Below are positions 6,027-26,481 of a stretch of 64,000 bases of DNA, one piece after another. Each line of letters begins with the position of its first letter. The first letter of the stretch is position 1. The translations under genes and the position numbers were made by a program. Origin of the DNA: Elainella sp. Prado103 (GTDB lineage: Bacteria > Cyanobacteriota > Cyanobacteriia > Elainellales > Elainellaceae); NCBI GenBank assembly GCA_025454395.1, contig JALOOM010000009.1, positions 1 to 64,000 on the forward strand, read 5' to 3'. The notes under the pieces were generated by a model, which was given only the letters and a program-made list of their open reading frames with translations, was not told the origin of the DNA and ran no database searches.

Positions 6027-6403
6027 TGCTCTACTGGTAGAAAATTAAGGGTTAACAACTCTAGAGTTCCCGCAATCATCCCGTGGGTCATCGATCACTC
6101 AGCCTTAAACATCGACACCTAAAGGACTCCGTTTTTTATTACAGTATATTGCAATTGACTACAACCCGCCAGCGATCGGGGTTCCATCCTGAATCAAAGC
6201 AATATAGGAATCAAGGATTGAATGACACTGCTTGTTGCGGGCTACCACGGCTGTTGCAGGCTACCATGAACCTAGACTTACTTTGGGCGATCGTCCTATT
6301 GCCTCATAAGACTTACTTGCCTCACAATACCTACTGCCTCACGATACCAACCGAACTCTGACTGCTTCAAAGGTGAGTTGACTGAGCAGACTACTTGAGC
6401 AGA
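6027..6403. other. Intergenic region with short duplications
   Basis: 377 bp between the TPR-sulfotransferase stop and fcl. It contains short direct duplications (GGCTACCA near 6240 and 6260; GCCTCAC near 6301-6335; GAGCAGACTACT near 6383-6408) but no gene. The fcl promoter probably lies here. Confidence 0.4.
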
Positions 6404-7816
6404 CTACTGAAGAGATCCAAAGTGATACTGATACAACGCAATATCTTTTTCGTAACGCTGGCTAACCTGTTCTTTCAGTCTTGGAGTGTATAGGTTAGCC
6501 GCACTGGGTAAGCCATTGAATTGTCGGAGTTGAGATGGATACATCTCATGGCATTCCAGCGAGTGATCGAAGTGTTGGTAGAAGGTTTGATATTCCGGCT
6601 TGTTGTGATACTGGGATGGATCGCGAGTAATTTGAATGTTGAATTTTGCTTCAAGGATCTTGAGGGTCTGCTCTAACTGCTCAAACTGACCAATGAGATC
6701 AAAGTTAATCAGGTTGTTGTCAAAAAATGTATATTGAGGTCGCCAATGCTCATTCATCCAAACATTTTCAGTATGAGTAAGATAATCAACAAATTGGCTA
6801 AAAGTAATAGAACGATGAAAATCTAAGGGTTGATCGGAACGTTGACAGACATCTTGAACAACAGTCTGAGCAAAGGATTCAAGCTCTAATGGTTTAACAA
6901 ATTTATCTAGATAAGCACTCACCAGGCGCTCAAAAGGATTTCTGAGGATAACGAATTTGAAAAACGCCTGATCTTGGAGGTATTCAAGCTGATCTAAACC
7001 GAATCCGGTATTTTCTCTGGCAACGTACGAATGGATATTTTCACCTGATTCTTGAAAATGTTTTTGACTGTCACTATGCTCCACTATCATTAGCTTGAAC
7101 AGGGTACAAGCATTTTTGGGGATAGGGCAGAAAATAATTTTATGTTTGCGATTAATTAAATAGCGCTGAATGAGGGATTGCTGTTGGGCTTCTTGAGTTT
7201 TTTGTGCGTATATACGCATTAGCCCTTGATACGCATCAGCGGTAGTGTAGCGGTTCTGACTGGATCGCAATACGGTTTGATAGGTTGTGATGGCAGCTTC
7301 TGATTGACCTTGAACTTCTAATAACCTACCTAAATTCAGATAAATTCCAGCAGGACAGTCAGGTTTGATCGCGATCGTTGCTTGATAGGCTAGGATTGCT
7401 TCGCTGGTTTGTCCCAGTTGAGTCAAGATGGTGGCCAAGGAACTATAAAACCAATGCGGTGGACTACTATGCAGTTCAATTGCTTTACGATAATTAGCTA
7501 ATGCGGGCTGAAAATCTTGCTGCTTGTGCTGAGCAGCGGCTAAGCGATAGTGAAGGTTAGCATTTTGTGTGAATCGATCGATCGCCTGCTGGCAAACAGC
7601 TATAACATCACTGTATTGTTTCAGATGATGAAGTGAGTAAGCTAGATCGAGATAGACCTTCGCAGGCTGATTGGGTTGAAGCTCAATAGCTTTTCGGTAA
7701 AATAAACTCGATGCTTGAAAATCCTGTTGTTGCTTGAATAGATTGGCAGTCTCAATGAGTGCTCTAGGATCGTTGATACCAGTTTCTAATTCAACCTGTA
7801 GTGTTTCCTGTCGCAT
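6404..7816 (-). CDS. TPR protein with C-terminal sulfotransferase domain
   Basis: 470 residues. Residues 1-215 are about five to six TPR units (pattern LGRLLEVQGQSEAAITTYQ). Residues from 225 form a Sulfotransfer_2-type domain that would move sulfate from PAPS to a carbohydrate hydroxyl. The 5'-phosphosulfate loop reads FCPIPKNACTLFK (about 232-244) with the catalytic Lys. The 3'-phosphate motif reads VILRNPFERLVSAY (about 287-300) with the usual Arg and Ser. Golgi-type carbohydrate sulfotransferases (HNK-1 and chondroitin types) share this core, usually without TPRs. No signal peptide or membrane segment, so it acts in the cytosol. It is the last sulfotransferase gene before fcl. The sugar acceptor is unknown. 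Confidence 0.85.
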   Translation of the reverse strand: MRQETLQVELETGINDPRALIETANLFKQQQDFQASSLFYRKAIELQPNQPAKVYLDLAYSLHHLKQYSDVIAVCQQAIDRFTQNANLHYRLAAAQHKQQDFQPALANYRKAIELHSSPPHWFYSSLATILTQLGQTSEAILAYQATIAIKPDCPAGIYLNLGRLLEVQGQSEAAITTYQTVLRSSQNRYTTADAYQGLMRIYAQKTQEAQQQSLIQRYLINRKHKIIFCPIPKNACTLFKLMIVEHSDSQKHFQESGENIHSYVARENTGFGLDQLEYLQDQAFFKFVILRNPFERLVSAYLDKFVKPLELESFAQTVVQDVCQRSDQPLDFHRSITFSQFVDYLTHTENVWMNEHWRPQYTFFDNNLINFDLIGQFEQLEQTLKILEAKFNIQITRDPSQYHNKPEYQTFYQHFDHSLECHEMYPSQLRQFNGLPSAANLYTPRLKEQVSQRYEKDIALYQYHFGSLQ

Positions 7817-7928
7817 GTTCAGAGACGCTCAATGGTTACGAGAGTAGTCAAACCAAGTTTGCAGGCGAAACATCGGTGGTTGGATAAGAGGAGTAACTCT
7901 CTCTCCTATGTAAAAATAAGGTAACGAT

Positions 7929-9170
7929 CTAGAACCATTTAAAGTCTCTATTTAACAAGTTCTTCAATTCCTGATTAAAAGGTTGAAAATACTCATTCAA
8001 TCGTTCTTTTATCTCAGACGGTGGTGATGAATAACTATTAGCATATACTTTCTCAAGATCATCGATTATAGGAGTATCAAGCTCCAAAAAACCAAATAGC
8101 TCCTCTAGAAATTTCTTGGGGCGATGCTCTAAATCATGGTAATCAATGATCAGAATTTGTTCTTTAGGAAAGACAGAGAACCAGTTCTTTAATTGGGCAG
8201 CATACTGACCATGGAGTAAGTAACGACTGGTATTCCATGTATCCAAAGTTCTGAACAGGGGAACATTATCACCATGTAAGCTCATTGCTTCTACTGCTTG
8301 CTCAAGATTAGCGACGCTAAATGCTTCTTCTAAGGAGCGTTGCTCATCTTTTACACGCTTGACTTGGTGGTGGTAATGAGAAATTGCTCGCTCAGTAGGA
8401 TTTCTCAGAGAAGCGATAAGTTTAACCTTGGGAAAGGTTGCCTTAATCCGAGCCGGTGAATCAGGGTGAGAAATATAACTGGGGCTGGCATCTCCCATCA
8501 AAAGCTGCTCAGGTGATAATCCGTGTTGACGAGAATATTCGGCTCGACCAGTAAATAAAGACAAATACCATCCCCAGCTTTTTTGATAAGGTTTGGGTGG
8601 CTTTGAAAAAAAGTTGACTTCCTTAGGTCGGCGTGGAACGACCTGTGGATGGCGCTGAAGATAATCGTATATGGCTGATGTAGCGGCTTTCATTGCACCG
8701 ATGATAATGAAATCAGGCCCTACCCCATTTTGAATGATTTGTTCAGTGCTGCATGATTTGCAATCAATCTGACCGATCGATACTCTATCAGCATTTGAGA
8801 AGACGGCTTTAATAATGAGTGATTGCTCGTTCAACAAAGTAGGTAGATTGAGAATTTGGCGAAAGCCAAACTTGACATTTTGCTTCTCAATCAGCTCGCC
8901 GAACCGCTGGATTAATCCTGGACGTTCAATATCGGTAGGGAGTTCTCCAATCAATTGATTATCTAAAAAAACTTCAACGGCAATAACTGGAAGATGCTTG
9001 CCGATCACCCAACCTGATAGCTCCAAGCGTCCCTTTCGGTCAATGATGGTTCCTGCAGAGGGTTTCACAATGCGGTGAGAGTGAAACAAATCATGATTTA
9101 TTGCAAAATTATCAACATGGGCAATAATGGATACCGATTGCTCTGCAAGATCGGGAAAGTTTGAAGTCAC
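7929..9170 (-). CDS. Sulfotransferase with N-terminal beta module
   Basis: 413 residues. Residues 35-140 form a beta-rich module (LELSGWVIGKHLPVIAVEV, DNQLIGELPTDIERPG) that recurs in gene 10457-12838. Residues 148-413 are a heparan-sulfate NDST-like sulfotransferase: PSB loop FIIIGAMKAATSAIYDYL (catalytic Lys about 160), HPQVVPRRPKEVNFFS, a YFGEASPSY-like motif (MGDASPSYISH), and the 3'-phosphate motif ASLRNPTERAISHYHHQ (about 248-264). All key residues are present. Start at GTG 9170, with GGAGGG five bases upstream. This gene and its two neighbours upstream are markedly AT-rich compared with the rest of the block. Confidence 0.87.
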   Translation of the reverse strand: MTSNFPDLAEQSVSIIAHVDNFAINHDLFHSHRIVKPSAGTIIDRKGRLELSGWVIGKHLPVIAVEVFLDNQLIGELPTDIERPGLIQRFGELIEKQNVKFGFRQILNLPTLLNEQSLIIKAVFSNADRVSIGQIDCKSCSTEQIIQNGVGPDFIIIGAMKAATSAIYDYLQRHPQVVPRRPKEVNFFSKPPKPYQKSWGWYLSLFTGRAEYSRQHGLSPEQLLMGDASPSYISHPDSPARIKATFPKVKLIASLRNPTERAISHYHHQVKRVKDEQRSLEEAFSVANLEQAVEAMSLHGDNVPLFRTLDTWNTSRYLLHGQYAAQLKNWFSVFPKEQILIIDYHDLEHRPKKFLEELFGFLELDTPIIDDLEKVYANSYSSPPSEIKERLNEYFQPFNQELKNLLNRDFKWF

Positions 9171-9305
9171 TATTACCCTCCAAAAAAATCAATAAACAGC
9201 GAACTGAATCGAGCTATCTAGTTCAAAACATCAGAATTATCAAAGGAGCGGCTCTCGATTCCCGACTACCCGCTGGTAGCTAAACGATCGATGATTCCGG
9301 TCTTG

Positions 9306-10319
9306 CTAACGAGGAGGTTTGCTATTTACCCACAAAGCCGCAAAAATATCGAAAGCCTTTTCTAAGGTTAGGGCATAGCTGCTGGGATTCGGCTTGGGGA
9401 AATCGTAAAAGAGGATGCCATCTTCCCGATTGAGGTAGTGCCTAGCTACTTTTGAATTGGAAGGCTCTAGGTGTTGCATGAAAGAGGAAAGTTCATCCTC
9501 ATCTAGCCCCATCCGTTCATTTGAAGAGATTTCACCCAGCAATTTGATCAGATTTGCTCGCCTTACATTCACATTTCCCATCTGTCTAAATCTAATATTT
9601 AATAACCTCAGAAACTCGATACAATCTGGATCTAAAGAGACATTATAGTAGGAATCAGGAATGTCAAAACTTGAATCTACTTGAAGCCCGATAATCCGAG
9701 AAAAATCTTTAATCAGATCATTATCTATGAGTTGACCTTTTTCAAAAACTCTAACCACTATTTTGTGCTTGGCAAAAATAGAATGCCATTTCTCCAAAAT
9801 TTCCCAGTAGTCGTAATGATTTTTGAGAAGTGCACCGCTTGGTATTGTGAGAGATTTGATATTTCCAGATTTAATAAAGGTGGAGTATGAGCTAAGTAAG
9901 AATGAGTCCTGCCTTCGTAGGTAAATAATTAGTTCAATCTCTTCAACAACCGACTCAAGAAGATCTCTCAGTGCAGTAATCTCATCAGGGCTAGTAAGCC
10001 TAGAAGAGCAATGTTCATTAGAGAGGATGATCTTGTCTGTATTGGAGCTTTTAACTTCCTCTAGCAGCTTTGATCTTAAATCTTGTCGGAAGCGTTGCAC
10101 ATCGCCCTGTGTTTTTAAGGCTAAATTCTTGCATAAGAACTGATCATTTAAAACATCTTGAAATGCGTATGCAGCAAGTGCAAGATGGTTGACTTCTCCT
10201 AATGCCTTTGGATAGGAAAAACCCTGTGAGCCTAGCAGATGGCGGTTGTTAGCAAAAAAGTGCTGTAAGGAAGTTGTACCTGTTTTCTCAGTTCCTATGT
10301 GAACGAATGCTTTCATCAT
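9306..10319 (-). CDS. Sulfotransferase family protein
   Basis: 337 residues beginning almost directly with the PSB loop, HIGTEKTGTTSLQHFF (residues 7-22), which carries the catalytic Lys. The middle has LSNEHCSSRL, and the 3'-phosphate-binding region is IYLRRQDSFLLSSYS (about 128-142). This architecture resembles stand-alone bacterial sulfotransferases found in capsule and exopolysaccharide clusters. The C-terminal 150 residues are helical and not assignable. No signal peptide; cytosolic. It lies 135 bp upstream of the next sulfotransferase gene and shares its AT-rich composition. Confidence 0.8.
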   Translation of the reverse strand: MMKAFVHIGTEKTGTTSLQHFFANNRHLLGSQGFSYPKALGEVNHLALAAYAFQDVLNDQFLCKNLALKTQGDVQRFRQDLRSKLLEEVKSSNTDKIILSNEHCSSRLTSPDEITALRDLLESVVEEIELIIYLRRQDSFLLSSYSTFIKSGNIKSLTIPSGALLKNHYDYWEILEKWHSIFAKHKIVVRVFEKGQLIDNDLIKDFSRIIGLQVDSSFDIPDSYYNVSLDPDCIEFLRLLNIRFRQMGNVNVRRANLIKLLGEISSNERMGLDEDELSSFMQHLEPSNSKVARHYLNREDGILFYDFPKPNPSSYALTLEKAFDIFAALWVNSKPPR

Positions 10320-10456
10320 TTCTCTGACCTATTGACTTGTGTTGATTCAATGAATGTAAACTATCATACTTCTACTTACTAAACCAACTTCTCTTACCTC
10401 TTGCTAGACTATGGATTATGTTGCTTTAAAGATGCGATCACGCCTCAGATGACATC

Positions 10457-12838
10457 TTAGCTCTGTGAAGTTTTCATCCAACTAAATTCGGATCCAAGCA
10501 ATTTTTGAAGTTCATAATTGTGAGCTTCATAATATTGATAGAGTCGTGCATAAAGTGAATCTGATATCTTAGGGTATTCTACTCTTGACCTTGCTTGAAT
10601 ACTCATATCTTCATGGTAACTTAGCCCAAGAAATGAAAGAACTTCCTGCTGAACAGTGTTTTTTTGACCAACAAAGTCTTGATAATCCAGAATCAAAATT
10701 TGCTCTTTAGGAAAAGCCCTAAACCAATTTCGCAAGTGGGTAGCATATTGTCCATTGTATAAATACCAAGATGTATCAGCATGACCCTGATCGAGGAAAG
10801 GAAGCTTAGAGAATTCAAATTGTTGTACAAGTTCAATCGATTTCTCAATTTCTGCTTCACTAAACGCCTCATCTAATGTCCTATGCTCACCTAGCTTTCT
10901 TCGCCGATAATAATAATACTGTGAAACCGCTCTCGCTACCGGATCGCGAAGAGAGAAAATAATTTTAGTGTTTGGAAAAAGAGCCTTTAGTCTGACAGGC
11001 GCTTTTCGTGAAGCCAAGTAACTTGGACTGGTTTCACCAATCAATTTGTTTTGAACTAACTCTCCATTTTCAAATATGGCAAAAAGGGATAAATACCAAT
11101 CTAGATCATGAGATTGATGATCGTTAAAGAAGTCGATTTTGCTAGGATGCCGTCTGATGATAGAAGGGTGTTGGGACAAATAGTTGTAAATAGAAACAGT
11201 TGCGCCACGAACAGCCCCTCCAATTACAAAGTCTGGGCCAGGTACGCCCTTGAGTGTTTCATCGGCATTACGGGATTCTAGAAAAATTGAGAAGAAAGGA
11301 ATTCGATCGCCATTTTCAAAGACAAACCAGAGATCTATATTTCTAGTACCTATGAATTCTCCTACGCAAACATATTGTGAAAAAGATAATTCAAGTTTAT
11401 TTTGAGTATTAATTTGGTCATGGTAATATCTACCCAGCTTAGTTTTAGATCGGGCTAGTGGAATAGCTTTAATGGTTTGATTATTGATGCTAACTTCAAC
11501 AGCTTTGATGAGTGCATTACTAATCACCCAGCCTGAAATGGGTAAGGTATAGTCTAAAAAAAAGTGCCCTAGTGAAGGTGTCTGGAGGTTGAAAGCTGCT
11601 AGTCTGTCGTCTTTTGGGAGAATTCTATTTGCTGCCTTAATAAAAACTCCTTGTCTTGGATGAATACTTCGCTCAATTTCTTCATCAGGGTCAATGTCCA
11701 GTTCCTCTAAATTCGATTGGCTTGAACCAATGATAATACTTTCAACTTTTGAAAATGCAGATTCAATGTTATATTGCCGACATACTTCTTCCTGCGTCTG
11801 AGACATCCATTTGAGTGAGCTATCTTGGAAATCTTGGGCAAAAAGTTTTTTGAGTAGTCGAGATAATGTCTCAGCATTAGGCTTCCCAAAGACAACATAT
11901 CCCCATTTATCTAAAATAAATCGACTGCCACCCGTCTCGCTGAAACAAATCACTTGCTTGCCTAGAATTAAGGACTCGAAAACAACGAGTGGATAGGGAT
12001 CTTCACGAGAAGTCAATGCAAGAATATTGGATAGCCCTAAGTAAAAGTAAGGGTTATTGACTTCTCCAGTAATGAAAAAATTACTTAAAGCCTCTGTTTC
12101 AAATGTTTGATGAGCAGGGTTAGAGGAGTCAGTATTCCATTTGCCGATCCACAGGAACTGGAACTCAGGTAATTGACGTGCAGTATCAAAGAAGATATCG
12201 ACTCCTTTGCGATAACTAGCAGTACCACAACCGCAAATAATGGGTCTATCTCTCTTTATCACTTCACCTAAAGCATTGTTCGGTAAAGGCATTTCAATCT
12301 GAGATAGCTCACGCAGCCTATCACACTCAAAGAAGTTCTCTAGAACAATAGAATTTTTAGGTTTGACTGGGAGAACTGCAAAAACATCATGCTCGACATC
12401 TCTTGAAACACAAATTAGTTGGTCAACATAATCCATGATGTCAAGAGACAGACACTTCGTTTTTAGGGCACTATTCAGCCCAATTTTCATCTCATGTAAA
12501 TGAAAAATATTTCGAATTTTTAACATCTTGGCTGCGATTGCCCACTCGGCTGATTCGGCTGAGTTGGCATAAACGAGGTCAGGCTTGACTCGATTTAAGA
12601 ATAATCGTGCTGTCTCGACTTTTTCTTCAAAAGAGAGATTGCAAATTCCATAGGCGGTATTTGCATTATGAAAAGACATACCATGAGGTTTTTCATCTAA
12701 GATTTCATCCCATAGAGGCCCGCTCTCTTTGGTCACAAGAATGATTTCGTGGTTGTGTGCCAACTTCCTTGCAAGCTGAAAGATAACTTTGGGAGCACCA
12801 GTTAATGAAGCATTATGGGAAACACAAACTATTTTCAT
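10457..12838 (-). CDS. GT4 glycosyltransferase-sulfotransferase fusion
   Basis: 793 residues with three parts. Residues 1-370: GT4 glycosyltransferase (KIVCVSHNASLTGAPKVIF; FLWIGKW; the nucleotide-sugar region SREDPYPLVVFESLILGK). About 410-525: the same beta module as gene 7929-9170 (ISGWVISNALIKAVEVSINN). About 528-793: NDST-like sulfotransferase with IFSLRDPVARAVSQYYYYRR as 3'-phosphate motif. The PSB loop reads VIGGAVRGATVSIYNYL: Arg replaces the Lys seen in the paralogue, so activity may differ. One polypeptide could therefore add a sugar and sulfate it. The gene starts 5 bp after the TPR/RgpF-like gene stop, with GGAG 8 bases before ATG, so the two are co-translated neighbours. Confidence 0.85.
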   Translation of the reverse strand: MKIVCVSHNASLTGAPKVIFQLARKLAHNHEIILVTKESGPLWDEILDEKPHGMSFHNANTAYGICNLSFEEKVETARLFLNRVKPDLVYANSAESAEWAIAAKMLKIRNIFHLHEMKIGLNSALKTKCLSLDIMDYVDQLICVSRDVEHDVFAVLPVKPKNSIVLENFFECDRLRELSQIEMPLPNNALGEVIKRDRPIICGCGTASYRKGVDIFFDTARQLPEFQFLWIGKWNTDSSNPAHQTFETEALSNFFITGEVNNPYFYLGLSNILALTSREDPYPLVVFESLILGKQVICFSETGGSRFILDKWGYVVFGKPNAETLSRLLKKLFAQDFQDSSLKWMSQTQEEVCRQYNIESAFSKVESIIIGSSQSNLEELDIDPDEEIERSIHPRQGVFIKAANRILPKDDRLAAFNLQTPSLGHFFLDYTLPISGWVISNALIKAVEVSINNQTIKAIPLARSKTKLGRYYHDQINTQNKLELSFSQYVCVGEFIGTRNIDLWFVFENGDRIPFFSIFLESRNADETLKGVPGPDFVIGGAVRGATVSIYNYLSQHPSIIRRHPSKIDFFNDHQSHDLDWYLSLFAIFENGELVQNKLIGETSPSYLASRKAPVRLKALFPNTKIIFSLRDPVARAVSQYYYYRRRKLGEHRTLDEAFSEAEIEKSIELVQQFEFSKLPFLDQGHADTSWYLYNGQYATHLRNWFRAFPKEQILILDYQDFVGQKNTVQQEVLSFLGLSYHEDMSIQARSRVEYPKISDSLYARLYQYYEAHNYELQKLLGSEFSWMKTSQS

Positions 12839-12843
12839 TGTTT

Positions 12844-15243
12844 CTACTCCTGCCAGTCAATCTGTAAATGTTGAGAACAGATCGTACTAACAATTAAATT
12901 CTGAAAGAAGGGTTCAAGCTCTTCATGTTGACTAATCAAAATGCTGCTTTCTCCTTCTTGAGTGAGACCTGAAGAACTGAGGCTCTGGTATATGGGATAT
13001 AACATTTTAGTTTTAACCATGAATATAGAACCGCGAGAAAAAGCACATTGGTCAGTCATGCTGGATGTAACAGCTTTTTCCCAGACTTTTGAATAGTCGT
13101 CATTCTTCAACTCTAGGTGTTTACTATCATCGTGGGAACACCCAATGGCACCGATCGATGTATTGTCTCGGAGTATACTAAGGTTCGACTTGATTCGATC
13201 GGGTGATCCAAATAGTTGCTCTAGTGAGTTAAGTTCTGGTAGCACACGGCTCTCATCTTGTTGTTGCGGTTGTAGAAAGCAAAGGATGTCATATTGAGCC
13301 CATTGCATTTGTCCCATTGAAGCGAGTTGTCCAGTTAAGCTACGGGTTTTGCCAGTAATGATGATAATCTTGCAATCTGGGATTTTTGAGTGGAGCTGAC
13401 TATGAATTAATGGATTCCACACCTCCTCATGAATGCTAATAAATACATCATGTGGAAATTCGTAGAAATTAATAATGTATTGTTCAAACTGGGACAAGGA
13501 TTGTCCATAGTCAATGTGGATGAGTATTGCGATTCGTCTTTCTACTGAATTGGATAAAAGCTGCTTTGGGCTGATGCTTGCCTGACTGCTGCTGGTTCGT
13601 GAACTAGAAAAATACAATTGTTTGGCAGAGTATACTCTCCCTTCATATCTACCATGCTTTAAATAATGAGCAATTAGTGCATATTTATTTTTTTGATACC
13701 CTTCTAGATCAGAATTGATCTCAGCGTACTCAATATAATTGAAGTCAACAGGTAACTCTGACTCATCAACCCCTAATTTTTGATAGAAATCTTTAATTGA
13801 AGCTGCCCTACCTTCATGCCTCCCATAATTGAACCAATGTTCGTAGGCTTCTTCCCGACTAGACAAATAACTTAAGTCGTTGTGGTAAGTAACATAGAAC
13901 ATCCAGTCAAATGTAAGTTCCTGACCAGAATCATCTCGCTGTTTTATTCCTGAAGTACTATTGGTGTGATTTGACTGATAATGACTGGAAATCTCTCGAA
14001 GTAAAAGCCGCAGTTTGTCATCTAAGGATACAACTGTTTCAGGAAGTGCTTCTTTTTTAATGTCATTTTTATCTTCAATTTCTTGTTGTTTCAATTGTTT
14101 TAATCGGCTAAGTAGAGATGTATTCTGAGGATATTGCTCCGCTGCCTTTTGATATATTGCAATTGCCTCAATTGAATCACCTCGCTGACACAACAACTCA
14201 GCTAATGTGCTATAAACCCAGGTGGGTTGTACTTCAAGTTCAATTGCTTTGTGATAGCTCTTGATCTCTCCCGCAAAATCTTGAATTTTTTCCTGGATAA
14301 TTCCTAGCTCTCGATACAACTCAGCCCGATCGGGATATAGTTCAATTGCTTCTTGATAGATCTCGATCGCTGCTGAGTACTGTTCTTGTTGGCTTAAAGC
14401 GATCGCCCGTTGCCAATACCAATCTAGGGATAATCCTTCATCTGCTACATCTGTTCCCGTTTGAGCTAAGTCCTCCAACCTTTGAATCAAGGCTTCGTCA
14501 TTGGGATATGCAGCTATTCCTTGATTACAAACTTTAATTGCTTGAGTATTCTCTTGTCTTTGAGTCAATAGATCGATTAAAGTGGTATAAACCCATACAG
14601 GCTGTGTACTTAGATTGATTGCTCTACTGTAACTTTCAATCTCTTCTAAAATATCTCCGCTCTGTTTCTGAACAAACCCCAGCTCTCGATGAAATTCTGC
14701 ATGATTGGGGTGGACTTTAATCGCCTGAGTATAAACTTGGATCAGTGTATGCCAGTCTTGTTTCTGCGTCAGCAAAGCTCCCAAAGTAGTGTATACCCAG
14801 AGCGGTTGTTCGGGTTTCAGCTCTACAGCCTTCTGATAGTTGAGAAGTGCTTCGGTGCGGTAACCCAATCGATCCTGTGCTAATCCAAGTTCACGGTATA
14901 AATCACCTTGCTTGGTATGATAAGCTATCCCACTTTGATAAAGTAGCAATGACTCATCCCACTGTTCTTGTTGTCCTAGTAGGCGACCTAATGCGATATA
15001 AACCCAGGCTGGAACTTGCGGATCTCGATCAATGGCTTGGCGATAATTGGCTTTAGCCTCCTCCAACTGATGCGATCGCTCTTGAACAAATCCTAGGGCT
15101 TGATAGAGGGAGGCCGCTTCTGGGTAAGCTTGGATTGCCAACTCATATAGTTCAATAGCTTCTGCAAAATTTCTTTCCTCTATCAATACCTGTCCCGCTT
15201 CCAAATATTGTTGGAGCGAATACTCAGATTCTGTCACAACCAT
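12844..15243 (-). CDS. TPR protein with RgpF-like C-terminal domain
   Basis: 799 residues. About 7-390: ten or so TPR units of 34 residues (for example FHRELGFVQKQSGDILEEIESY). About 445-545: two copies of a short helical module, WMFYVTYHNDLSYL...HWFNYGRHEGR and YIEYAEINSDLEGY...HYLKHGRYEGR, also found in gene 32314-33906. About 568-799: RRIAILIHIDYGQSL...YDILCFLQPQQ, which resembles the rhamnan synthesis F (RgpF-like) domain of glycosyltransferase-linked proteins. It is probably a cytosolic scaffold or transferase in the glycan pathway; catalysis is unproven. It is 5 bp upstream of the GT4-sulfotransferase fusion. Confidence 0.75.
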   Translation of the reverse strand: MVVTESEYSLQQYLEAGQVLIEERNFAEAIELYELAIQAYPEAASLYQALGFVQERSHQLEEAKANYRQAIDRDPQVPAWVYIALGRLLGQQEQWDESLLLYQSGIAYHTKQGDLYRELGLAQDRLGYRTEALLNYQKAVELKPEQPLWVYTTLGALLTQKQDWHTLIQVYTQAIKVHPNHAEFHRELGFVQKQSGDILEEIESYSRAINLSTQPVWVYTTLIDLLTQRQENTQAIKVCNQGIAAYPNDEALIQRLEDLAQTGTDVADEGLSLDWYWQRAIALSQQEQYSAAIEIYQEAIELYPDRAELYRELGIIQEKIQDFAGEIKSYHKAIELEVQPTWVYSTLAELLCQRGDSIEAIAIYQKAAEQYPQNTSLLSRLKQLKQQEIEDKNDIKKEALPETVVSLDDKLRLLLREISSHYQSNHTNSTSGIKQRDDSGQELTFDWMFYVTYHNDLSYLSSREEAYEHWFNYGRHEGRAASIKDFYQKLGVDESELPVDFNYIEYAEINSDLEGYQKNKYALIAHYLKHGRYEGRVYSAKQLYFSSSRTSSSQASISPKQLLSNSVERRIAILIHIDYGQSLSQFEQYIINFYEFPHDVFISIHEEVWNPLIHSQLHSKIPDCKIIIITGKTRSLTGQLASMGQMQWAQYDILCFLQPQQQDESRVLPELNSLEQLFGSPDRIKSNLSILRDNTSIGAIGCSHDDSKHLELKNDDYSKVWEKAVTSSMTDQCAFSRGSIFMVKTKMLYPIYQSLSSSGLTQEGESSILISQHEELEPFFQNLIVSTICSQHLQIDWQE

Positions 15244-15896
15244 ATTCTCTACCCTAGCGCTTTGGGAACTTTAACCGAGAGGAATAATTGTAGAAATTGC
15301 TCAATAATAATTCATTAAATATCGCCAAAAACTGGCTAATTCGAACAAAATTGGTGATAAACCGAAGATACTCGGAATTTGAAGGACTCTGACTTATAAG
15401 GCAAACAAAAAATACTTTAGAGTAAGAACTGATAATCTATCGATTAACTCAGTAGTCGCTCTCAAATATTCAGGTTTACCAGGAACCACAGTCTTGATTA
15501 GCACAGTCTTGATTAGCACAGTAAAAAAGCTGATCAGCCATTCAATGAGTACAATGACAAGCTAACCTAACTGTATATCCACTTTGAAAAACTCAGTTTC
15601 AGGAACGCTTTTCAACAATCAACACAAGCTCACGTAACCAAACTTTAACTAAGATATCTGAAAAGTGAGCTTAATTGCTAGCTTTTTGTCAAGTTCATAA
15701 TTTCTTTGTAGTATGCAGGAGAGACCTCAAAGAATTGCTAAAATTTAAGCCTGATTCCAGATCGCGATTCAAATAACAATCACCGACTTGTTTCTCAGGG
15801 AGTTTTTCTGCATATATTTGGATAGGAAAATACCATTGCACCATAGGACAAATTTGGTTCTGAATCCGGTTCCCTCCAAGCACGAGACAATGTTAG
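15244..15896. other. 653-bp intergenic region
   Basis: AT-rich gap with one 15-bp tandem duplication (15487-15522). The only ORF (15695-15883, minus, 62 codons) has no motif or ribosome-binding site and is not called. As the largest gap inside the block, it is a likely promoter region for the genes at 5.1-15.2 kb. Confidence 0.5.
15487..15522. repeat. 15-bp tandem duplication
   Basis: CACAGTCTTGATTAG at 15487 and 15502 with a third partial copy (CACAGT) at 15517. Confidence 0.8.
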
Positions 15897-17024
15897 CTAT
15901 AACTTGAGCATAGAGGTAAGTGGAGACTCAGGCGTTGCTTCAGACGCAGGTACAGTTCCTGGTGTCACCTGAATAGTTGCCAGTTCTAGAGATTCACCAT
16001 TTGCCATTTTGGCAATGATTTTGATTGATTCTGCGCCTTGAACCGTCAAATTCTGAAATTTGAACCGGGCTTTGGCACTGGCCGCGATCTGCTGATATCG
16101 TTTAGCGGCGATGGGTGATGGCAGTCCCAACCGGGCCGCGATCGATTGATTGGCAAAACTGGCAACCATTTCCTGGATGGGTAAATCATCCTGAACCGGG
16201 ACTACGACTCCACCTAAGTTAAAGGGTTGATTGACATAAATGGCATCTGGGATTTGATCGATCATGACCATTTCAATCCGAGAGGCGTAGCTGTCCCTGG
16301 CAGCCAATGCATAATTGATAAATTGATTTTTCAGTTCGATCGAGGATGTGATAGTGCTGTGGCGTTTGGATAGCACTTGATCGAGCGTAGCCTCACAGTA
16401 TTCTGCGCCGAGAAATTGAAACAGATCCGCTAGCTGGCTGGTTTTGCCAACCACATCTTCATAGGTAATCTGGAAGCTGTTCTGTGGATGGTTCGCTGCA
16501 TATTGATTAAAGAGTAATTCCAGAGATTCGATCGCCTGCTTGCTCTTCTTTTCATTGGCATGGAGCCACCAACCACTTTTCAGCACATCTTCAAGCTTGC
16601 GAGTATTGAAAATAAAGCAAACATTGGGAAAGATCCGCTCTAAAAATGCCAAATAAGCCTCAAACTCAGGCAAAATTTCCACATATCGCACCTCCTTGAA
16701 GCCATAGCAATAAGAAGCATTGGGTCGATCGGCCAACAGAATCTTTTTGACCAAAGCGGCACAATCCTGGCAGAACTGATCCGGATCGATCAATGCTGCC
16801 CCATACCAGGAGTGAGTCGGCTCTAAATTTTTGTGAGGCGATCCAGCCGAGGCTTTGGCGCGTTCTAAACTCTTGTAAGCCTGGTAGAGCCCGAATATGA
16901 AGTTATCATTCTCGCCGCGGACTAAAACGCCAGGGATACTATTCAGAACGCCTTGTAGCAGGGTGGAGCCACTACGGCCGTAGGTGACTACGAGCACGGT
17001 ATCAAAGTTGAGCGGGGGTTGCAT
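15897..17024 (-). CDS. Sulfotransferase family protein (GRSGST type)
   Basis: 375 residues. The PSB loop VVTYGRSGSTLLQGVLNS lies at about 12-29, with Arg in the position Lys occupies in other families (Sulfotransfer_3-like). An acidic VRGENDNFIFGLYQAYK segment follows. The 3'-phosphate region is FIFNTRKLEDVLKSGWW (about 136-152). The C-terminal 120 residues hold an extra beta region (IEMVMIDQIPDAIYVNQPFNLGGVVVP...FKFQNLTVQGAESIKIIAKM) not seen in the short paralogues; it could be a carbohydrate-binding or dimerisation part. Cytosolic. It is separated from the next gene by a dispersed intergenic repeat. Confidence 0.78.
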   Translation of the reverse strand: MQPPLNFDTVLVVTYGRSGSTLLQGVLNSIPGVLVRGENDNFIFGLYQAYKSLERAKASAGSPHKNLEPTHSWYGAALIDPDQFCQDCAALVKKILLADRPNASYCYGFKEVRYVEILPEFEAYLAFLERIFPNVCFIFNTRKLEDVLKSGWWLHANEKKSKQAIESLELLFNQYAANHPQNSFQITYEDVVGKTSQLADLFQFLGAEYCEATLDQVLSKRHSTITSSIELKNQFINYALAARDSYASRIEMVMIDQIPDAIYVNQPFNLGGVVVPVQDDLPIQEMVASFANQSIAARLGLPSPIAAKRYQQIAASAKARFKFQNLTVQGAESIKIIAKMANGESLELATIQVTPGTVPASEATPESPLTSMLKL

Positions 17025-17318: not shown

Positions 17319-18152
17319 CTAGGGCAGTTCAAGAGGGTGACCAAATCGCTCCCAAACCTGCCGAATCACTGCAATATCCTCAGGATTAGGAATCGACATA
17401 TCGAGCTTGTCCCACTCGTCGCGACGGGAAAACTTCTTGTTGATTTTGTCAGCAAAATTCTCCTTATCTTGCTTCCACTTATCCTGATTAGGTACATAAA
17501 CATAGTCAAATGCCTTAAGCACAGCCGGATCATAAGGCACTGCCAGGTGCTCAAACAGCGCTTTAACGGAAGCTTCTGGCTCCTCTACAAGCTGATGATA
17601 ATTGACCGCGTAGGTGACTTGAGAAGCGGGATGCAAAATACAACGAGACATGGTGGCGATCCCATGCCAGACATTACCTTGCTCACGCCCCCAATATTCA
17701 CCGGAAGACAACACAACATCACAGGGATGTCGCAGAATGGTGATGAATTTGCCCTGCGGAAATACCTGCTGCAAGATACTCCAGTAGAGCTGAAACCATT
17801 CTTCCAAGCTCATGCCATCCTTGCGGAGATAGTTGATCACAAAAGGCTGACCGATCGGCTTTTGCATCCAGTAGGGCGTGTCGAGCTGCAAAATTTCATC
17901 AAACACAGCGCGCACACCTCTGGCAACTCGCTGTTCCCAGGGGACTAACTTACCGTTGCGAATGAGCCCAGGAATAATGCCTTTGGCCCGTTGAATGGAA
18001 TACCAGGTGCTAAAGATCAGGTCGGCTGTTTCGCCAGCAACTGAGATATCGGGATGGGCATCAAAAATGTTTTGTAATAAAGAAGTGCCCGATCGCCCAT
18101 GGGAAATCAGGGTAATCGGTGATTTGAGCATATGATGGCGATTTGCATTCAT
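17319..18152 (-). CDS. Sulfotransferase family protein
   Basis: 277 residues from ATG 18152, with GAAGG eight bases upstream; the frame also opens at TTG 18167. The PSB loop ITLISHGRSGTSLLQNIF is near residues 13-30, followed by DAHPDISVAGETADLIFSTW. The 3'-phosphate motif is ITILRHPCDVVLSSGEYWG (about 137-155). It is a compact single-domain PAPS-dependent sulfotransferase with Arg in the loop, close in type to the 15897-17024 product. The C-terminus has a KWKQDKENFADKINKKFSRR basic stretch. Cytosolic. It lies 57 bp downstream of the next sulfotransferase gene and is probably co-transcribed. Acceptor unknown. Confidence 0.82.
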   Translation of the reverse strand: MNANRHHMLKSPITLISHGRSGTSLLQNIFDAHPDISVAGETADLIFSTWYSIQRAKGIIPGLIRNGKLVPWEQRVARGVRAVFDEILQLDTPYWMQKPIGQPFVINYLRKDGMSLEEWFQLYWSILQQVFPQGKFITILRHPCDVVLSSGEYWGREQGNVWHGIATMSRCILHPASQVTYAVNYHQLVEEPEASVKALFEHLAVPYDPAVLKAFDYVYVPNQDKWKQDKENFADKINKKFSRRDEWDKLDMSIPNPEDIAVIRQVWERFGHPLELP

Positions 18153-18224
18153 GGGTTGACCCTTCAACGAAGCCGAACGAACAGTCGAACAAGAGGAAAC
18201 AGGGGCGAACGGGATGGAATCTTT

Positions 18225-19043
18225 TCAAATGGAATCACTTGAAACTGGGAGTTCCGGTGAATATTGAAATGTCTTGAAATCTTCTTGGTAAATGGTTTGC
18301 ACCAGTTTTACTACCGATGGATGGGCATAAAACTTGGCTAACTTGTCATCAGCTCCCGTTTTTCGGCCGCGCCGCTTGGGGGTATCGCGGTTTTCGGCAG
18401 CGGTCTGGGGCTGAGTCTGCTGGTTCATGTGAGATAACACTTGCTGCCAGTCTTGCTCTAGGGTTTCGAATCGGCCAATCAAGTCATAAGAAATTTGTTG
18501 ACCAAAGAGTTGCGCGCTCTGAGTTCGCCAGTGCGGATCCATCTCTAAGACCGACTGCTGTTCGATCACTTGCAAAAATTGCTGGAAGGTGATCGGTTCG
18601 TCGATCGACTGATCGAGGGCATCGGCAATTGTTTTGCGATATTTACCTTCTTTCCAGCTCAACTTGCTCAGGAAGGCTGAAAGAACCCGGGTGTAAGGAT
18701 TGCGGACAAAACAAAACTTGAATATTTGGGGATCATTCAACAGGGCATCGAATTGTTCAATCCCGATATCTGAAGGCGACAGTAAGGGAGAAAGCTTCTT
18801 ATTGTGGATGGTCTCCATGTCTTTGGCCGGTGGGGGTTGTCCCAAAGCCTGGGCTTCGATGGCTTGCAGCCGGGATTTGAGGGTGGAGCAAGCTACTTTA
18901 GGCACCTCTACATAAATAAATTTGTTTTTTAAAGAAATGTGGATATGGTAATTGAATTCATGTTTGGGCATGAACTCGCAAAACCGAGCTTGCAGGGCTC
19001 GATTGACAGGCATTTGAGCAGATGAGGTAGCTAAGACATCCAT
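18225..19043 (-). CDS. Sulfotransferase family 2 protein
   Basis: 272 residues from ATG 19043. The frame is open further upstream, but that would overlap the preceding gene's stop at 19058. The PSB loop is FIYVEVPKVACSTLKSRLQ (about 44-62) and the 3'-phosphate motif FCFVRNPYTRVLSAFLSKL (about 110-128). WRTQSAQLFG and YDLIGRFETLEQDW match Sulfotransfer_2 enzymes, and the TPR-sulfotransferase 6404-7816 has the same order of motifs. An odd basic, low-complexity stretch (NRDTPKRRGRKTGADDK) sits near residue 220. It starts 14 bp after the upstream GT2-GT4 gene. Confidence 0.85.
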   Translation of the reverse strand: MDVLATSSAQMPVNRALQARFCEFMPKHEFNYHIHISLKNKFIYVEVPKVACSTLKSRLQAIEAQALGQPPPAKDMETIHNKKLSPLLSPSDIGIEQFDALLNDPQIFKFCFVRNPYTRVLSAFLSKLSWKEGKYRKTIADALDQSIDEPITFQQFLQVIEQQSVLEMDPHWRTQSAQLFGQQISYDLIGRFETLEQDWQQVLSHMNQQTQPQTAAENRDTPKRRGRKTGADDKLAKFYAHPSVVKLVQTIYQEDFKTFQYSPELPVSSDSI

Positions 19044-19057
19044 AGAGCAGCAGTGAA

Positions 19058-21730
19058 TTAGGAAGGGGAGGACGATAAACCGGCAGGCAACGAGGGTTGG
19101 ATGGATCGGTGCAGTCGATCGTGCAAGGTTTGGCAGGCTTGTTGCCAAGAGCGCTCGGCAGCCGCAGCGGCCGCAGCTTGTTGGATCTTGAGCCTGTGAT
19201 CCGGCTGAGCAATTAGTTTCGTCAGGGCGGTCAGCACAGCTTCCGTGAAGAAGTGCCCGGTGACATTCGGGATAATGATCCCAGTTTGCCCAGATTCGAT
19301 CGCTTCAGAGACGGCTCCTACCTCCGAGGCACAGACAATCACCCCAAGCCGCATCGCTTCCAACACCGTTAAGGGTAATCCCTCCCAATAGGACGGCAGC
19401 AGCAACACATCGGCCCAGGCATAAGCCTGATTGAGGGCTTCCTCGGTGAGGGCAGGGGGCTCAATCAAGGCAGCAACCGGCGCTAATTCGCTAGCGGCAT
19501 CCTGGTCTTTAACAATATTTTTCCCAACTAATCGCCACTCGATCGGCAGCGATCGGTTCTGCGCCGTGGTGACAATATCGACCAGTCGATCCAACCCTTT
19601 CTGCCGATCGAACCGGCCGATAAACAACACCCGCAGTGGGCGTTTCAGTGGTCTTTGCCAGCGTTCAGATAGCAGGGCAGCAGTGATGGCTGGATCGAGC
19701 GGATAGCCACAGGCATTGGGGACAACAACGATCTTGTCTTGGGGCACTCCCATGGCATGACACCAGCGGGCCATTTGGTGCGAGCAGGGAATCAGGAAAT
19801 CATAGGCATGTTCATAACCCAAAGCGAGATGGCTAAAGCCGTTGGAGCGGTTCCAGGGGGTGAGATCATGCACATGCAGTGAGGCGATCGTTTTGACCCC
19901 ATGCCGACGCAGGAGTCCCATTAGCCCATTGGCTGCAACACTATGGAAATTGATCACCGCATCTAACCAGGTCATCATCCCCAAGACTTGTTGGTGATCT
20001 CCCTGTTCAGACCAATTGTCGTAGGTGCTACCTAGATAGCGTGAGCCCCCCCATTGATACATGGCAGGTTCATTCAAAAAATTAATGGTGTCAAACCCGT
20101 CAGCCCATTCTGGCAACTCCTGCATGTAGGTGTTGAAGACGAACAGATGCACCTGCCAACCCTGCTCTCGAAAAACACGGGCAATATTCAGGGCAACCTT
20201 CTCCACCCCACCAAATTCCACGATCGGTAAAATAAACCCTAGATGGCGTTGTTGAGGTTGGGTGAGCTTGGGATAAATCGTCTGACACTGGAGAGCATAT
20301 TGGGCATCTCGATAGGTTTCCGATCGGGGTGGAAAGTAATTGGTCTGCCAGTTCCATTTCGACTGAGATTGCCAAGTACGGGACTGCCGCTGTAGATCTT
20401 TTAATGTGGCTAGTAACTCATAGAGGGCTCCCCCTCGGAGTGAGCCCAAATCTTCTGGATCAGAGCCAGTGAGCTTCAGGTTAAATAGCTTGGGTTTGGG
20501 TTGGGATGTCATCAGGCTCTGGATCCATTCATCGCTACTGTCGCGCAAGCAGGCATCCAATAGCCGCGTGGTCGTCATCACCAAGTGATCGGTTTCGCCA
20601 ATCACAGGATGATCCGTATCAAGATACTCCGTGATGCGAATTTCAGGGGCAGATTCCCGTTCCAGCCTGAGGGTTGCCAGGTTAAAGTCAGCTTGGGCTT
20701 GCTCTAATCGCCAAAATGCCCAATGGAGCAGCTTCTGGTTCTGCAAAAATTGTAAAACCGCCTGCCGTGTGAACACCAGAAATGGGGCTCGATGGTGCCA
20801 AGTCGCTCCAATAAAGCCACAGCCGTAGCGAGCCTGGTAGTCTGGCAGGCTGATGGTGCGATCCAACTGGGCAGGATCGGCAGTCAGGACAATGGTGCCG
20901 GTATCTTTGAGAAAAATCGCGTAGCGGGGAGCTTCCTGATGCTCCAGAGAGAGAATTGCTTGGTGGGTGAAGAGGCGGCGATGTTTGCGGCGCATGTAGT
21001 CGATAATGCCGCTGCGATCACGCTCTGAGTCCCGTAGCATACTCTCCGGACGCTTGCGATATTGGAAGCCAAATTCGGGTAAATGTTGCCCGCGAAAGCC
21101 AGCTTCGATCGCCTGCCACCAAAATTCCCAGTCTTCAAACCCCAGTCTCATCGATTCATCGTAGCGGCAGCCCGCCTCAAAGACGCTGCGGCGCACCATA
21201 CTGCCTGCTTCACAGGTATTGAAATGCAGATGACGCAACACGCTGTAATCGCCGCGATAGTTTCCACTATCTTCATGCCCAAACATATGAATGGAGGGAT
21301 AGACCCAGCCCACCTCCGGTTGTTCCTGTAAAACCCGAAAGGCCCGATCGATCGTATGGGGGGTAATGCGATTGTCGGCATCCAACAGGTAAATCGCCTC
21401 CACCGATGCCCAGGTGGTGAGGGCAAAGTTGATGCCCGTGTTGCGAGCGGCACTCAATCCACCATTGGGGCGGGCCAGATAAATGACGCGATCGGGGTAG
21501 GCAGTAGCAAACTCTCGCCCAATCCGATCGGTTTCGGCAAAGGGGCAACCATCATTGACGATGACCACAGCGATCGGGAATTCGGTTTGTTGCTGCAGGG
21601 CACAGCAGATGGCTTCACCCACTAAAACGCTATGCTTATAAACCGGAATCACGATCGCGATCCGAGGGGCTAACCCGCTCTGGGTGTTGATCGCAGTGGG
21701 GATTGGGGTGGGGGTGATTGCACTCGTCAC
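19058..21730 (-). CDS. Bifunctional GT2-GT4 glycosyltransferase
   Basis: 890 residues. N-terminal GT2 domain (about 20-270): IAIVIPVYKHSVLVGEAI, VIVNDGCPF, IYLLDADNRITP (DxD) and the acceptor part FEDWEFWWQAIEAGFRG. A middle region (270-500) has unassigned sequence. The C-terminal GT4 domain (about 505-880) has HLGFILPIVEFGGVEKVALN, a VLFIGRFDRQKGLDRLVDI segment and the donor site YWEGLPLTVLEAMRLG. Two transferases in one chain suggest processive addition of alternating sugars. I chose GTG 21730 because AAGGAG lies five bases upstream; the frame extends to TTG 21751, inside a tandem repeat. The C-terminal Ala run (QQAAAAAAAERSW) is notable. Confidence 0.88.
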   Translation of the reverse strand: MTSAITPTPIPTAINTQSGLAPRIAIVIPVYKHSVLVGEAICCALQQQTEFPIAVVIVNDGCPFAETDRIGREFATAYPDRVIYLARPNGGLSAARNTGINFALTTWASVEAIYLLDADNRITPHTIDRAFRVLQEQPEVGWVYPSIHMFGHEDSGNYRGDYSVLRHLHFNTCEAGSMVRRSVFEAGCRYDESMRLGFEDWEFWWQAIEAGFRGQHLPEFGFQYRKRPESMLRDSERDRSGIIDYMRRKHRRLFTHQAILSLEHQEAPRYAIFLKDTGTIVLTADPAQLDRTISLPDYQARYGCGFIGATWHHRAPFLVFTRQAVLQFLQNQKLLHWAFWRLEQAQADFNLATLRLERESAPEIRITEYLDTDHPVIGETDHLVMTTTRLLDACLRDSSDEWIQSLMTSQPKPKLFNLKLTGSDPEDLGSLRGGALYELLATLKDLQRQSRTWQSQSKWNWQTNYFPPRSETYRDAQYALQCQTIYPKLTQPQQRHLGFILPIVEFGGVEKVALNIARVFREQGWQVHLFVFNTYMQELPEWADGFDTINFLNEPAMYQWGGSRYLGSTYDNWSEQGDHQQVLGMMTWLDAVINFHSVAANGLMGLLRRHGVKTIASLHVHDLTPWNRSNGFSHLALGYEHAYDFLIPCSHQMARWCHAMGVPQDKIVVVPNACGYPLDPAITAALLSERWQRPLKRPLRVLFIGRFDRQKGLDRLVDIVTTAQNRSLPIEWRLVGKNIVKDQDAASELAPVAALIEPPALTEEALNQAYAWADVLLLPSYWEGLPLTVLEAMRLGVIVCASEVGAVSEAIESGQTGIIIPNVTGHFFTEAVLTALTKLIAQPDHRLKIQQAAAAAAAERSWQQACQTLHDRLHRSIQPSLPAGLSSSPS

Positions 21731-25728: not shown

Positions 25729-26481
25729 TTAACGAACAGATGAGCGGGAGGAGAAGGTCGATCGGGCGAGCGGGGTAGAGAGATCGGGAACGATTTGTCG
25801 TAAGCGATCCCATTCTGCCAAGGTAACCTGGAGGAGCAGGGATTGCTGTAACCGTTCTGCCCGCATGGCTAGGGCTGTTTCATAGAGCACCATATCTTGT
25901 GCATTTAGATCGGCAATCTTTGCCATTAGATCTGGATTTAAGACGATCTGTCTCAACTGTTGAAAATAGTTAGGGTTAGGGTTGGTATTTTCGATCACGG
26001 GGTGAAATTTAGGCCAGCCTAAACAACGCTTCAGCTCTAATAGATCTTCGGTGAAGAACTCTTGAATCCCGACAAAATAGAATTCTGTTAAGGGCAATTC
26101 AGCCGTAAACGCCGTCATCACATTGCGAGCCTCGGTCAGTTGGGCATATTCCAATAAGCTCAAGTTTTGATCGACCACCTGCACATGAAGGGGATTATTG
26201 CGATCGTTAAAACTTTGGGAGAAAAAGTAATCCGAAATCACCCGAAAAATAGGATGTCGCAGCCAAACGATCTTTTTGGCATCGGGGAAATAAGGCAAAT
26301 ATTTACTGAGGGGATAGTGGCTATGTAACAGCTTGATTTTGAGCAATTGAGGATCGTTGGGCTCACAAGCTTGCCCGTCTAAATCTCGGTAGATCTGATC
26401 CGATCGATACACCTGGGTCAAAATCTCCCAAAACGCTGTACCCGCAGTTTTAGGAATATGAATGGATAGCACCTCTACCAT
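25729..26481 (-). CDS. Sulfotransferase family protein (short form)
   Basis: 250 residues starting almost on the PSB loop, VLSIHIPKTAGTAFWEILTQ (about 4-23), with the catalytic Lys. The 3'-phosphate motif is KIVWLRHPIFRVISDYFF (about 67-84). KIKLLHSHYPLSKYLPYFPDAKK before it is typical of Sulfotransfer_2 enzymes acting on carbohydrate. The C-terminal helix region ends in an unusual Ser/Arg-rich tail (STPLARSTFSSRSSVR). It starts 3 bp after the stop of the HAD-like/GT2 gene 26485-28587, so coupling is likely. Confidence 0.85.
   Translation of the reverse strand: MVEVLSIHIPKTAGTAFWEILTQVYRSDQIYRDLDGQACEPNDPQLLKIKLLHSHYPLSKYLPYFPDAKKIVWLRHPIFRVISDYFFSQSFNDRNNPLHVQVVDQNLSLLEYAQLTEARNVMTAFTAELPLTEFYFVGIQEFFTEDLLELKRCLGWPKFHPVIENTNPNPNYFQQLRQIVLNPDLMAKIADLNAQDMVLYETALAMRAERLQQSLLLQVTLAEWDRLRQIVPDLSTPLARSTFSSRSSVR

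Follow-up and report, generated by a model that had tools for sequence, protein, structure and literature searches.

The gene P0001 of Elainella sp. Prado103 joins in a single chain a GT4 glycosyltransferase, a beta-sandwich module and a sulfotransferase domain of the 3-OST/NDST type in which two catalytic residues, the Lys of the PSB loop and the Glu that serves as base, have been replaced. As in pseudoenzymes, this tail has kept the fold and lost the catalytic residues. The reading that we favour, and regard as probable, is that of an active GT4 enzyme carrying a non-catalytic tail that would bind PAP(S) and glycan. The features on which our analysis is centred lie as follows in the window, i.e. 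the whole 64,000-nucleotide stretch of DNA that was analysed:

10457..12838, minus strand: whole fusion gene P0001, an open frame of 793 aa
11729..12838, minus strand: GT4 glycosyltransferase half, residues 1-370 (Pfam GT4 families over cut-off; identity to a stand-alone GT4)
11243..11605, minus strand: beta-sandwich module, residues 412-532 (alignment with the P0002 module and 26 others)
10475..11242, minus strand: 3-OST/NDST-like sulfotransferase domain, residues 533-788 (Pfam Sulfotransfer_1; model compared with NDST1)
11207..11209, minus strand: Arg544 at the position of the PSB-loop Lys (sequence and alignment)
11138..11143, minus strand: Ser566-Lys567 at the position of the conserved Lys-Glu, whose Glu is the catalytic base (sequence and alignment)
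12844..15243, minus strand: upstream gene with TPR and an RgpF-like end with an eroded motif, probably in the same operon (Pfam and profile comparison)
7929..9170, minus strand: stand-alone paralogue P0002, beta module and sulfotransferase, with Lys161 and Lys183-Glu184 intact (GTG start)

Architecture and genomic setting of the fusion gene

The first-pass annotation had proposed the order GT4, beta module and sulfotransferase, which is borne out by one minus-strand frame of 793 codons with no stops, the plus-strand frame being riddled with them. Pfam assigns the GT4 families Glyco_transf_4 and Glycos_transf_1 and the families Sulfotransfer_1 and Sulfotransfer_3 to the two ends of the protein, the middle part being devoid of Pfam matches, and no NCBIfam family scored above its cut-off for the fusion, P0002, the gene at 9306-10319 or the upstream TPR gene. 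A chimaeric assembly as the source of P0001 was considered and is disfavoured by the intact frame, by the location of its ATG only a few bases after the upstream gene and by the equal G+C content across the junction (39% in the GT4 part, 38% in the sulfotransferase part). In the alignments the similarity to P0002 reaches almost to the N-terminus of the latter, and that to the stand-alone GT4 of genome G319 stops near residue 370; thus, the fusion seems to combine two genes in their entirety, a P0002-like gene for beta module and sulfotransferase having apparently been attached to the end of a GT4 gene.

The GT4 half scores over the Pfam cut-offs of PF13439, PF00534 and PF13692, is 50% identical to the G319 enzyme (L061:6406-7548:-) and shares with it the RKG and SREDP...FE motifs. 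With these motifs intact, it is predicted to add a sugar to a glycan. Its closest known setting is that of the RgpF-linked GT4 enzymes of rhamnan synthesis: an RgpF-like gene lies just upstream of the GT4 both in the window and in G319, and among plasmid matches related GT4 parts belong to proteins bearing the name rhamnan synthesis F, although the GT4 of the fusion differs in having a beta module and a sulfotransferase tail. The upstream gene, the only RgpF-like one found in the genome, reaches 24.9 bits against a cut-off of 25, its motif reading GKTRSLTGQLASM in the window versus NRGKDIGGHLASM in L061.

The fusion, P0002 and their neighbours occupy a stretch (6400-16000) with a G+C content of about 38-42%, compared with about 50% elsewhere in the window, and this low-G+C stretch was probably acquired. 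Other genes of the surroundings encode Sulfotransfer_2 (6404-7816 and 18225-19148) and Sulfotransfer_3 (15897-17024 and 17319-18167) proteins; the gene at 25729-26481 resembles by eye another sulfotransferase-type gene, and the minus-strand gene at 9306-10319 (337 aa), free of Pfam and NCBIfam matches, has a sulfotransferase-like start, IGTEKTGTTSL. By its description, the synechan cluster of cyanobacteria is of the same kind, with the sulfotransferases XssA and XssE beside glycosyltransferases (PMC8205485); that work treats them as catalytic, unlike the tail proposed here, and does not present them as fused to a GT4.

The sulfotransferase domain and its stand-alone paralogue

By homology (phmmer E 8e-18) and by its structural model the tail is a 3-OST/NDST-like sulfotransferase. 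The model has a mean pLDDT of 79 over beta module and tail, rising to about 90 across most of the sulfotransferase part, and its best structural matches are NDST1 with PAPS (Z 25.9) and 3-OST-3 with PAP (Z 25.5), over 231-242 residues, the next group following at Z 14.6. The domain shares with the heparan sulfate 3-O-sulfotransferases and NDST enzymes of Sulfotransfer_1 the fold, the frame of the PSB loop and the Arg and Ser of the 3'-phosphate site; it differs from them in having Lys567 in place of the catalytic Glu and Arg544 in place of the PSB Lys, and in being bacterial and joined to a GT4.

The kinship with the gene at 7929-9170, also suggested earlier, was recovered with 35% identity over 365 residues of the beta and sulfotransferase parts (E 4e-67). 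On the tree P0002 and the fusion are sisters (support 100/99), with the longer branch leading to the fusion, and P0002 is the second gene downstream of it. This closeness lends some appeal to the idea that the dead domain is a regulatory partner which pairs with P0002, or with another sulfotransferase of the cluster, and either positions it on the glycan that the GT4 half makes or activates it, as inactive paralogues do with active ones in other families of enzymes (PMC3663545). We found no orthologue of the fusion in the genomes searched, so that the pairing is not conserved elsewhere, and we regard a regulatory role of this kind as the most improbable of the explanations weighed here.

Replacement of two catalytic residues

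The PSB loop reads GAVRGAT in the fusion (Arg544, codon CGT at 11209-11207) versus GAMKAAT in P0002 (Lys161, codon AAA), just as the first-pass annotation had it, and the second loop reads PSKIDFF versus PKEVNFF, with Lys567 at the position of Glu184 of P0002. Pairwise and profile alignments agree in equating Lys567 and Arg544 with Glu184 and Lys162 of human 3-OST-3, in which E184Q and K162A each leave <1% of activity (PMC8341778). The fusion thus has neither the PSB-loop catalytic Lys nor the catalytic Glu base of active 3-OST/NDST-type enzymes. Arg631 and Ser639, which form the 3'-phosphate site, and Tyr698 are kept.

The two changes do not carry the same weight. The PSB position is occupied by Lys in 126 of 134 non-redundant relatives and by Arg in the other eight (L043, L044, L045, L098, L022, L161, L204 and the distant outgroup row L006), all of which keep Lys-Glu in the second loop. 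The Lys/Arg label requires five changes on the tree, so Arg has several origins, and it is accepted at this position in other active families such as Stf0 (PMC11625862). Because Arg recurs in relatives whose active site is otherwise intact, Arg544 alone is no sign of inactivity, and we rejected it as the decisive change. By contrast, each of the 63 core relatives, like P0002, has Lys-Glu at the position where the fusion has Ser566-Lys567, and 131 of the 134 relatives of the wider set have Glu, the exceptions being two Wzt fusions and one outgroup row. The earlier view that Arg occurs elsewhere was therefore right, and its attention to Arg544 fell on the weaker of two active-site changes, the telling one being that of Lys-Glu into Ser-Lys. 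It had left the choice between an enzyme with different kinetics and a domain that only binds; the loss of the Glu base, which it had missed, tips this choice towards binding and away from activity.

A working bifunctional enzyme, which would both add and sulfate a sugar with altered kinetics or acceptor, is unlikely in our opinion. In such an enzyme the leaving group would be stabilised by Arg544, as it is by Arg in Stf0, and the part of the Glu base would fall to Asp569 or to the substrate. The intact 3'-phosphate site and the Arg of active families and of the eight relatives are in its favour, as is Asp569, a possible base that sits two residues past Lys567, near the base position and in the place of His186 of 3-OST-3. 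Against it, Glu has been exchanged for a residue of opposite charge at a position where even E184Q is not tolerated by 3-OST-3, and many relatives have Asp or Glu at the 569 position alongside Lys-Glu, Asp being common there in relatives that keep Glu, which argues against a specific compensation.

The distribution of the changes bears on whether the gene is simply decaying. The core set has 51 conserved columns; 11 of them are altered in the fusion and nine in P0002, seven being altered in both. The deviations private to the fusion fall on residues 544, 566, 567 and 603, three of the four being in the active site; four random private changes on the remaining 44 columns would include all three with P = 3e-4, an estimate that treats sites as independent when, once catalysis is lost, the three active-site residues are not. 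The pattern fits a domain that lost catalysis and kept its fold and cofactor site, without amounting to proof of selection. The first-pass annotation had named as a refutation of its reading homologues with Lys and an Arg peculiar to this strain, in a decaying gene; the alignment shows instead that Arg recurs and that the private changes sit in the active site, where decay would have scattered them.

Altogether, we favour the GT4 enzyme with a non-catalytic tail. The fusion would then be an enzyme of exopolysaccharide assembly, whose GT4 half adds a sugar to the growing glycan and whose tail most likely no longer transfers sulfate, given that the catalytic Glu base is gone and the PSB Lys has been exchanged. 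The beta module and the dead domain could hold the glycan chain, possibly in a PAP- or PAPS-bound state, thereby positioning or gating it for the GT4, and sulfation would be left to P0002 or to other sulfotransferases of the cluster. For annotation, it follows from the two missing catalytic features that the tail should not be described as an active sulfotransferase without an assay. More generally, the PSB Lys/Arg position alone does not separate active from inactive members of the family, the Lys-Glu loop being the better guide.

The beta module and the search for other copies of the fusion

No Pfam family matches the beta module above cut-off, the best being Big_7 with an E value of 0.022. 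The P0002 module was modelled with a pLDDT of 91 as a sandwich of Fn3/Ig-like shape whose structural matches (best Z 9.8) are common sandwiches only, from which no binding function follows. Fragments containing the module, which were misplaced when mixed into the sulfotransferase alignment, were modelled apart from it. The module is found in 20 of 390 cyanobacterial genomes, often within long open frames; in G319 it is joined to a Sulfotransfer_2-type enzyme (L061:1715-2893:+) and is inserted between a GT92 domain and methyltransferase domains (L061:3039-5501:-). Its behaviour is that of an accessory part that moves among glycan enzymes.

Orthologues of the complete fusion were found neither in 60 relatives, 390 genomes of the class, 14 genomes of the family of G319 and 36 genomes of the order, overlapping sets that amount to about 400 distinct cyanobacterial genomes, nor among plasmids or viral contigs; a scan of genome contigs with six short patterns retrieved only a weak glycosyltransferase match in a Nitrosospira bin. 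The single known copy fits the possibility that P0001 arrived recently and that its sulfotransferase part now serves no function and is decaying, while the GT4 half may still work. The low-G+C and probably acquired stretch, the long branch of the fusion and the neighbour with an eroded RgpF motif point the same way, and yet the frame of 793 aa is intact and the conserved sites that are changed only in the fusion are gathered in the active site and not in the scaffold; we give decay slightly less credit than the bifunctional enzyme. Against the favoured non-catalytic tail stand the Arg of active Stf0, the candidate base Asp569, the one known copy and the eroded upstream motif, which fits relaxed selection on the whole island.

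A parallel case in Wzt exporters

The two Wzt fusions that depart from the conserved Glu (L214:1944-4016:+ and L215:1928-4000:+) are frames of 690 aa with Asn and Gln at this position. Both encode Wzt-type ABC export ATPases in which ABC_tran and Wzt_C are followed by Sulfotransfer_1. Orthologues (L216-L243) were identified in 28 genomes of one family: 27 belong to one genus, and the last is G406, in whose genus two genomes have a Wzt lacking the sulfotransferase tail. Of the 249 sites of these tails only one is more variable than the Glu position (Q7 E6 R5 D4 N3 K3). The PSB Lys position is K19 N5 Q3 F1, and the 3'-phosphate Ser is replaced by Leu, Met or Val in all. The median omega of Nei-Gojobori pairs, computed without G406, is 0.134 for the tail, 0.138 for the ATPase and 0.143 for Wzt_C. 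The tail therefore looks, as judged from these sequences, like a non-catalytic sulfotransferase domain under purifying selection, and provides an independent precedent for the tail favoured in P0001.

Wzt with a C-terminal carbohydrate-binding domain is known from other bacteria, where Wzt_C binds the modified end of the chain and so licenses export (PMC9445017). The proteins of the 28 genomes have a degenerate sulfotransferase domain, of like kind to that of P0001, behind this glycan-binding beta domain, and by analogy the dead sulfotransferase beside Wzt_C plausibly reads the glycan chain too. The Wzt fusions differ from the GT4 fusion in their host enzyme, in their place on the tree, where they make up one clade of their own, separate from both the fusion and P0002, and in the loss of the 3'-phosphate Ser, which the GT4 fusion keeps. 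A paper on A. salmonicida, considered as a possible report of a Wzt with a sulfotransferase domain, was rejected because it concerns two separate genes. Our search of the open-access literature, subscription papers being mostly outside its scope, retrieved no description of a pseudosulfotransferase in a glycan pathway.

Taken with the GT4 fusion, these proteins make it tempting to speculate, in what we see as an evenly balanced judgement, that cyanobacteria have repeatedly turned sulfotransferase domains of the 3-OST/NDST type into non-catalytic tails for glycan recognition: once on a GT4, and once on Wzt behind a carbohydrate-binding domain, where the tail would possibly recognise a sulfated or capped chain end ahead of export. 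If dead sulfotransferases do read sulfate or caps, automatic annotation would overcount the sulfating enzymes of polysaccharide clusters, and binding domains for sulfated sugars would be ready to hand.
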